DNA of 28,905 nucleotides from a virus, in IMG/VR virus record IMGVR_UViG_3300022673_000047, positions 1 through 28,905 of that record; one strand, 5' to 3'. This document shows, one piece after another, positions 26,244 through 27,636 of the stretch (its first letter is position 1; the number at the start of each line of letters is the position of its first letter). The position numbers were made by a program, and so were the translations under genes. The notes beneath the pieces are model-generated. The model searched no databases, was not told the DNA's origin, and saw only the letters and a program-made list of their open reading frames with translations.

Positions 26244-26681
26244 TCAGGAATGCAAGAGGCGGCCATGAACAAATTGCGTGGACTCTCCATTCCACCGAAC
26301 ATTCCCCTGGTTCTGAATGACATCCCCATTCTGGCAAGTGCAAGCCAATGCAAAACTCCTCATCTCGTCGTCTCTCATCACGACAAATCCAGAGCTAGAA
26401 CATTTTTCACATCGCGTTGGTCCCGAATTGACTGGTTCACAATGATCGAATATGGCATTCATAATTATTGGGTATGAGATCTTTTTTAGATCCTCGGACC
26501 TCAAGTCATAGAGCCCTGCCATGATGGCTTTAAAGGGTTTCCCCGAATTCACAATCTCGGATAGCATCGTGGCGAATTGATCTTTTTTGATGGGCTTATC
26601 TTGGAGTATGTATAAATCCCGTAAGCGTGACTCGACTTCAATTTCTTCTTTTGCTGTTAAGCATTGAACTAACTCGTTCAT
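26244..26681 (-). CDS. Replication-associated CxxC protein in lambda-P position, 145 aa
   Basis: GGGAGAGAA before ATG 26681, overlapping the initiator gene by 44 nt. The N-terminal 80 residues are helical (DQFATMLSEIVNSGKPFKAI, LYDLRSEDLKKISYPIIMNA), a pattern similar to helicase-loader N-termini. Residues 91-116 hold a zinc site, CEKCSSSGFV...ACTC. In lambdoid phages the gene after O recruits the host DnaB helicase, so loader/organiser is the positional inference. There is no Walker motif, so it is not a DnaC ATPase. Confidence 0.5.
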   Translation of the reverse strand: MNELVQCLTAKEEIEVESRLRDLYILQDKPIKKDQFATMLSEIVNSGKPFKAIMAGLYDLRSEDLKKISYPIIMNAIFDHCEPVNSGPTRCEKCSSSGFVVMRDDEMRSFALACTCQNGDVIQNQGNVRWNGESTQFVHGRLLHS

Positions 26682-27636
26682 TTCTCTCCCTCACTTTTTG
26701 TTTTTCAATCTCCATCTCTTCTCTTTCGATTTGCTCTTTTGACTTGGTTGAATTCGGGATGATACCATTCCAATGTGCGGAAAGCGTTTTGATCGAGAAA
26801 GAGGCCCAGCCGTCTTTGGTAAACCAGCTCGTTTTACTTTTGCACATATGTCCAAGCATCTGGGCTTTCTTAACACAGGCCTCATAGCCGTGATCCCTAA
26901 TCAACCGGGCCGTTAAGATAAAATCTGTCTTATCGTACTTGTAAGGTTCATTGGTCATAAGTTGGTAGGCTTTTTTGAATCGCTCAACAAAATCTTGGTT
27001 GGGGGCGAGGGAGTGGCCGTTGGTCTTTTCAACGGCTCTCTCTCTTTCTTCTTTCTTTAAAGTTTTCTTTCTTTTATTTAATAATAAGGTGTCGGGTAAC
27101 TGATTAGTTACCTTTTTGGTAACTGATCCGTTACCTTTTTGGTAACTATTTAGTGACCTTTTGCCTGGTAACTGATTAGTTACCTCTAACTTATCCACAG
27201 AGTTATCCACAGAGTTATCCACACCCCAAACATTCCATTGTGGATACATTTTATTAAGTTTCAAGTATCCGTTTTCGAGCATAAGGACATTCATTTTGAT
27301 TAGGTTTTTGAGTTCCCGTATGACTTGTTTCGGATTCATTCCTGTCTTAAGGCTTATGGCTTTGTAACCATCCCATTTCCATTTAGTCAGCTTCTTGTTC
27401 TTATCAGTATTATCCACCCAACCATATGTATCCCTGAAAAACCACCACAAGAGACGGTGCTGGGAACCATTTAGTTTAATTAGGGATAGAACATCAGCAA
27501 TCTCATTGGCTATCCAGAAATATCCTTTTTCAATTTGAAAAGAAGGCATCTTCGCCAAACATTCGTCGTCGTTCTTCTTCAAAAAACCATTTTCATAAAG
27601 TATTTTTATAGCGTGTTGAATGTCATCTCTTGTCAT
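26638..27636 (-). CDS. Replication initiator, phage O-like
   Basis: A 332-aa protein. Residues 33-122 match the phage replication protein O N-terminal winged-helix domain: EKGYFWIANEIADVLSLIKL, the RLLWWFFRDTYGW core, AISLKTGMNPKQVIRELKNL. In lambda this domain binds origin iterons. A repetitive linker (138-190, VDNSVDNSVDK, VTNQLP twice) is encoded by the DnaA boxes and iterons. The C-terminus (about 210-332) is helical and basic and would contact the helicase loader. The first 30 residues are an extra N-terminal segment. A weak AAGGA lies about 10 nt before ATG 27636; a terminator-like hairpin lies upstream. Confidence 0.85.
   Translation of the reverse strand: MTRDDIQHAIKILYENGFLKKNDDECLAKMPSFQIEKGYFWIANEIADVLSLIKLNGSQHRLLWWFFRDTYGWVDNTDKNKKLTKWKWDGYKAISLKTGMNPKQVIRELKNLIKMNVLMLENGYLKLNKMYPQWNVWGVDNSVDNSVDKLEVTNQLPGKRSLNSYQKGNGSVTKKVTNQLPDTLLLNKRKKTLKKEERERAVEKTNGHSLAPNQDFVERFKKAYQLMTNEPYKYDKTDFILTARLIRDHGYEACVKKAQMLGHMCKSKTSWFTKDGWASFSIKTLSAHWNGIIPNSTKSKEQIEREEMEIEKQKVRERNERVSSMLNSKRRN
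27041..27093. other. AT-rich, strand-biased tract; candidate unwinding element
   Basis: Almost free of G on the top strand (TTTCTTCTTTCTTTAAAG, TTTTATTTAATAATAAGG), adjoining the first iteron. In lambda-type origins the DNA unwinding element sits beside the iterons like this. Confidence 0.6.
27095..27184. repeat. Four palindromic 18-bp iterons
   Basis: GGTAACTGATTAGTTACC at 27095-27112 and 27167-27184 (identical), GGTAACTGATCCGTTACC at 27118-27135, GGTAACTATTTAGTGACC at 27141-27158. Each is a 7+4+7 dyad. Spacing is 23, 23 and 26 nt, with TTTTT linkers. They are the likely binding sites of the O-like protein encoded by the same DNA. Confidence 0.85.
27191..27223 (+). repeat. Three tandem perfect DnaA boxes
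   Basis: TTATCCACA at 27191-27199, 27203-27211, 27215-27223, each 12 nt apart and separated by GAG. All match the 9-bp E. coli consensus exactly. A fourth copy with one mismatch (TTATCCACC) is at 27410-27418. They imply host DnaA participates in origin firing or copy control. Confidence 0.85.

Follow-up and report, generated by a model that had tools for sequence, protein, structure and literature searches.

The O protein of bacteriophage lambda is the textbook example of a phage initiator that takes the place of DnaA, the initiator of the host. Lambdoid (Stx phage) origins lie in the middle of the O gene and consist of iterons and an A+T-rich region (PMC7466680). Iteron plasmids need DnaA sites beside their iterons (PMC5043065, PMC3155836), and DnaA boxes were not detected in staphylococcal plasmids (PMC5703833). 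Here we analyze a locus in the IMG/VR virus record IMGVR_UViG_3300022673_000047, all 28,905 nucleotides of which are referred to below as the window, a linear record of 28.9 kb in which terminase, portal, major head, and endolysin genes were recognized using Pfam and PHROG. We consider that an O-family initiator gene of the window probably contains a lambda-type theta origin, together with an added array at which DnaA could dock. Homology and layout support the predicted lambda-type origin well, and DnaA may be recruited at the array. Each of these elements is already known.

The gene in question (26638..27636, minus strand) encodes an O-like replication initiator of 332 residues, assigned from PF04492 and PHROG matches, in which a winged helix is followed by a linker and a C-terminal region. 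It matched PF04492 (Phage_rep_O, the family of lambda O) with an E-value of 2e-10 and a score of 41.5 bits against the curated cut-off of 28.7, with the winged-helix match spanning residues 34-134. It also matched the PHROG "replication initiation O-like" families phrog_678, phrog_2365, and phrog_277, and its winged-helix domain was alignable with the O proteins of lambda, Gifsy-2, mEpX1, a Halomonas phage, and others. The score for PF13730 (HTH_36-type, a helix-turn-helix domain) was 15.7 bits, below the curated cut-off of 25. A sequence search of solved structures gave no relative, and the predicted structure of the initiator had a mean confidence (pLDDT, predicted local distance difference test) of 43.

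Read in the coding direction, the gene contains the winged helix, three DnaA boxes, 6 bp, four iterons, and an A+T-rich tract. The iterons are 18-bp palindromes (14-16 of 18 positions self-complementary in each) built on the half-sites GGTAACT/AGTTACC, with starts spaced 23/23/26 nt, and they sit in the linker between the N- and C-terminal domains. Again in the coding direction, and without assigned strand, these are iteron 1, GGTAACTGATTAGTTACC (27167..27184; frame 2, EVTNQLP; 6 bp from DnaA box 3), iteron 2, GGTAACTATTTAGTGACC (27141..27158; frame 1, RSLNSYQ), iteron 3, GGTAACTGATCCGTTACC (27118..27135; frame 0, GNGSVT), and iteron 4, GGTAACTGATTAGTTACC (27095..27112; frame 2, KVTNQLP). Because three different frames are used (2, 1, 0, 2) and the peptides differ, we read the iterons as DNA signals, not as a peptide repeat, and as elements selected at the level of DNA. 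The tract adjoining them on their 3' side (27040..27094, likewise without strand) is purine-rich on the coding strand and is presumed from its composition and position to be the unwinding element; at 27045-27094 it reaches 78% A+T, compared with 56% contig-wide, which places it in the top 0.3% of 50-bp windows (about the 99.8th percentile).

The preliminary description of this locus had placed four palindromic iterons, an adjoining AT-rich tract, and three DnaA boxes inside an O-like initiator coding region and had likened the layout of iterons and tract to lambda ori. Our analysis recovered all of these elements within the gene (the iterons at 27095-27184), and the likeness to lambda ori is supported by the lambda record and the lambdoid origins. 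The order of the elements needed one amendment, in that the boxes lie on the side of the iterons opposite the A+T tract. The suggestion that the repeats dictate a repetitive peptide holds under the boxes, where the use of a single frame gives VD[NK], and fails for the iterons, which are read in three frames. The GC-skew check that it recommended was uninformative: the contig shows negative skew over nearly its whole length, without a turn at the site of the array and iterons.

Three exact boxes at 12-nt spacing had also been reported, and we found them at 27191, 27203, and 27215. All are exact matches to TTATCCACA on the plus strand: box 1, the first in the coding direction, occupies 27215..27223 and reads G-VDN, box 2 occupies 27203..27211 and reads S-VDN, and box 3 occupies 27191..27199 and reads S-VDK. 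They are arranged head-to-tail, read TGTGGATAA on the coding strand, and are the only exact matches to TTATCCACA on either strand of the 28.9 kb. Box 3 is unchanged despite its N-to-K residue, and the N/K change falls on the base just outside the box. Given the peptide GVDNSVDNSVDK and the codon usage of the phage, three exact boxes would be expected with a probability of about 6e-5, an estimate that assumes independent codons and would be weakened by a recent 12-nt duplication, which would make the copies non-independent. None of 5000 synonymous recodings kept all three boxes, and so the peptide does not by itself dictate them. A search of named phages with the 24-residue VDN peptide returned one unrelated gene and nothing else.

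Some resemblances to the iterons and the A+T tract were seen elsewhere. The O gene of Brevibacillus phage Jimmer2 (L328:1935-2090), which is distant from the window initiator and without DnaA boxes, contains palindromic repeats on GTAACT/AGTTAC, half-sites shared with the window iterons. A 23-nt stretch of DNA, AAGAAAACTTTAAAGAAAGAAGA, is identical in the A+T tracts of two O genes, at 27047-27069 in the window and at L001:4430-4452; the two O proteins are about 30% identical, and the identity is partly expected, the peptide KKTLKKEE having been a search pattern. Exact iteron matches at L122 and L123 were set aside as chance or contig-edge matches, with no initiator seen there.

We compared the gene with 24 other O-type genes, each recognized either through PF04492 or through a local profile of the winged helix of that family. 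Their sources were phages (lambdoid ones, others, and one Brevibacillus phage), prophages that two genome searches supplied, and two array loci that carry their O gene elsewhere than the array. An exact DnaA box was found in none of the 24, lambda included, either in the gene or within 1.5 kb of it. The array therefore makes the window gene unusual within the O family, as the preliminary description had supposed of such genes; the supposition does not extend to several other phage initiator subfamilies, in which the array recurs.

This recurrence came from two scans of viral contigs, one for pairs and one for triplets of TTATCCACA at 12-nt spacing, each of which found at least 119 loci. Both scans select on the exact box, and their results are thus examples, not frequencies. 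Arrays of consensus boxes at 12-nt spacing are common in phages, outside the O family. Most of those among the matches listed sit outside long genes, and the VDN frame is used in 45 of the 63 array-carrying long open reading frames (ORFs) among the matches listed, the window's own included. The genes at L266, L303, L248, L264, L022, and L231 are replication-initiation or DnaD/O-like by PHROG and Pfam, several with HTH_36-type domains, and each has its array at, or just past, the point where the winged-helix match ends on the C-terminal side. Together with L274, these HTH_36-type initiators resemble the window gene in having a winged helix-turn-helix (wHTH) domain followed by two to four TGTGGATAA boxes, mostly 12 nt apart and in the VDN frame, with repeats beyond in most; they differ in not belonging to PF04492 and in the sequence of those repeats. 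Where comparison is possible, identities among them are 23-41%. The succession from wHTH domain through two to four boxes at 12 nt to lineage-specific palindromic or direct repeats was seen, for example, at L266 (TGATAAGGTTATCA), L303 and L264 (both ACAAGCCCCAGCTTGT), L248 (AACCTCAGAAGTTTCA), L022 (TTACCGAACGTCGGTAA), and L274, and no clear iterons were found beyond the array of L231. L261/L321 (GTCCAGAAATCTGGAC) and L281 have this succession too, in HTH proteins that are only putative initiators and hence were not counted as such.

Several other loci with DnaA boxes came to light. A protein at L284:1314-2498 (plus strand) combines a DnaD-like segment (phrog_10469, residues 220-298) with the N-terminal domain of DnaA (PF11638, residues 317-377), and its gene has three DnaA boxes at codon 135; it is possibly a phage initiator that has acquired a portion of DnaA. 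In bajarodmic virus 162 (PQ006258; Microviridae, a small single-stranded DNA phage), five consecutive consensus boxes lie just after the replication-initiator gene (L360:1501-1555), and this array is identical to that of the window at 34 of 34 nt. Tandem DnaA-box-like matches were found within the baseplate J gene of Wolbachia phage WO (H64, H75, H90-H92). In T5-like phages (H65-H71), matches resembling DnaA boxes occur in the left terminal repeat, where a single record has up to 14 of these places. A highly repetitive ORF at L222:1-594 (minus strand; VDNIVDNIRANIGANI...) has repeats that include DnaA boxes.

In the mechanism that we propose for the window, the phage initiator would bind the four palindromic iterons as dimers through its N-terminal winged helix, at sites encoded in its own linker. 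Bound initiator would strain the A+T tract on the far side of the iterons, as lambda O does, and host DnaA would bind the three head-to-tail boxes on the opposite side, the nearest of them 6 bp away from the iterons. DnaA may then help to build or stabilize the open complex, or may help to bring the host helicase. Such an origin would use both initiators, like the iteron plasmids P1, pSC101, and R6K, and the joint recruitment by phage initiator and host DnaA that the preliminary description proposed is plausible. In favor of this reading are the O-family assignment, the lambda-like arrangement of iterons and tract, the three frames of the iterons, the exact boxes that the peptide leaves free, the frequent VDN frame of other arrays, the need of iteron plasmids for DnaA sites, the recurrence of the layout in other initiator genes, and the invariant box DNA among the relatives of the L248 initiator described below.

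Several points weigh against this mechanism. Lambda uses O and P in place of DnaA (PMC5043065), and the lack of an exact box in all 24 sampled genes indicates that the O family in general needs no DnaA boxes. According to a local profile of the winged helix, for which seven of the array-carrying long ORFs served as training set, the array lies inside an initiator-like gene at only 16 of the 233 array loci listed, and since most arrays are outside initiator genes, they may have other roles. The window is a linear fragment. Finally, close relatives of the gene, in which conservation within its own O lineage would show, were absent from the viral and bacterial genome collections searched, where the viral part yielded a single distant locus and the genomes yielded nothing.

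Among the alternatives, the one that survives best accepts a lambda-type origin and makes the boxes regulatory: DnaA would repress or tune transcription through the origin, or the array would titrate or sense DnaA. DnaA is known to influence lambda replication via pR transcription (PMC7466680), the T5 injection stop signal contains DnaA boxes (PMC13250531), and consensus arrays are common outside initiator genes (after the microvirus Rep gene, in T5-like terminal repeats), which makes other uses possible. However, the window array is 6 bp from the iterons, and its place and orientation are the same in other wHTH initiator genes, which points to an origin complex and not to a free-standing titration site. 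We regard a regulatory role as unlikely, though it is the strongest of the competing explanations.

A less probable explanation, to which we give little credence, is that tandem duplication of a 12-nt unit of the linker, encoding VDNS, produced the boxes incidentally, with DnaA uninvolved and the origin made up of iterons and A+T tract only. The unit is in frame, linkers tolerate repeats, and copy number does vary among relatives of the L248 initiator, which we gathered by protein similarity alone (82-100% identical). In this family the number of boxes ranges from one to three and changes in whole 12-nt units, but the DNA of the boxes is invariant. The VD of the array is always encoded as GTG GAT, compared with GTG at 69 of 387 valine codons (18%) elsewhere in the same genes, and synonymous change was found in 136 of 225 columns with an invariant residue; the sequences are related, so these counts are not independent. 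An N/K swap again occurs at the base just after the box. Judged from these codons, the L248 pattern is what a conserved DNA site would give within a linker otherwise free to vary. Duplication also fits poorly with the window, in which the third unit has K and an intact box, with the low chance estimate given above (subject to its stated dependence on independent codons), and with the occurrence of the same box beside different iterons across lineages.

It is very improbable that the locus is not an origin and that the repeats are operators through which an initiator-like protein controls its own gene: wHTH proteins can act as repressors and dimers can bind palindromes inside genes, but the O-family homology, the A+T tract, the lambda ori order, and the occurrence of repeats in this linker in O-family genes all speak against it. 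A reading of the repeats as peptide linker only was discarded because of the codon constraint and the three frames of the iterons.

The 3' end of the initiator gene is overlapped by an ORF of 145 residues (26244..26681, minus strand), which by its position is a candidate helicase loader, an analogue of lambda P. It had no match in Pfam, PHROG, or phage proteins, a search for relatives was also empty, and its predicted structure had a pLDDT of 41. Relatives were found through the terminase, yet a PF04492 gene was present in none of the 49 records searched; the replication module is therefore either mosaic or outside those fragments. The phage at L140, with a terminase 57% identical to that of the window, has a different putative replication protein (471 residues), and its DnaA boxes (766-774 and 982-990) lie upstream of the gene for this protein and at its start codon.

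A broader proposal, whose chances we put at about even, is that there is a widespread, previously undescribed type of phage origin in which the linker of a winged-helix initiator gene supplies a DnaA array followed by lineage-specific iterons, in which both initiators are needed, and in which the array, present in different initiator families, has been gained and lost in 12-nt units. A limited search of the open-licence literature found no description of DnaA arrays within phage initiator genes. The presence of this layout in initiator genes of several distantly related phages suggests that their replication start is aided by a host protein. If so, some phages would couple their replication to the host initiator, unlike textbook lambda, and phage replication would be tied to the level of host DnaA. 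The repeats would also provide a sequence signature for phage origins in metagenomes, namely VD[NK] repeats invariably encoded with GTG GAT AA.

Compared with known systems, the window locus is most like lambda ori, with which it shares the central position of the origin within a gene of the O family, a set of four palindromic iterons of 18 bp spaced about 23 nt apart, and an A+T-rich tract 3' of the iterons; the iterons annotated inside O in the lambda record are 18 bp long with a spacing of 20/24/23. It differs in that the sequence of its iterons is unrelated to that of lambda and in having three consensus boxes between winged helix and iterons, where lambda O has none. An origin within the initiator coding sequence is also known from repC of repABC plasmids and from pAD1, pSK1, and pSK41 (PMC3155836), although repC is without iterons and DnaA boxes. 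With P1 oriR, pSC101, and R6K gamma the locus shares the combination of replicon-specific iterons, an A+T-rich region, and DnaA boxes (PMC5043065, PMC3155836). In contrast to these plasmids, its initiator belongs to PF04492 and its origin lies within the initiator gene, and their iterons are direct repeats bound by monomers, whereas those of the window are palindromic. Because of these palindromes, we suggest that the window origin works like an iteron plasmid origin and is not a member of that group.
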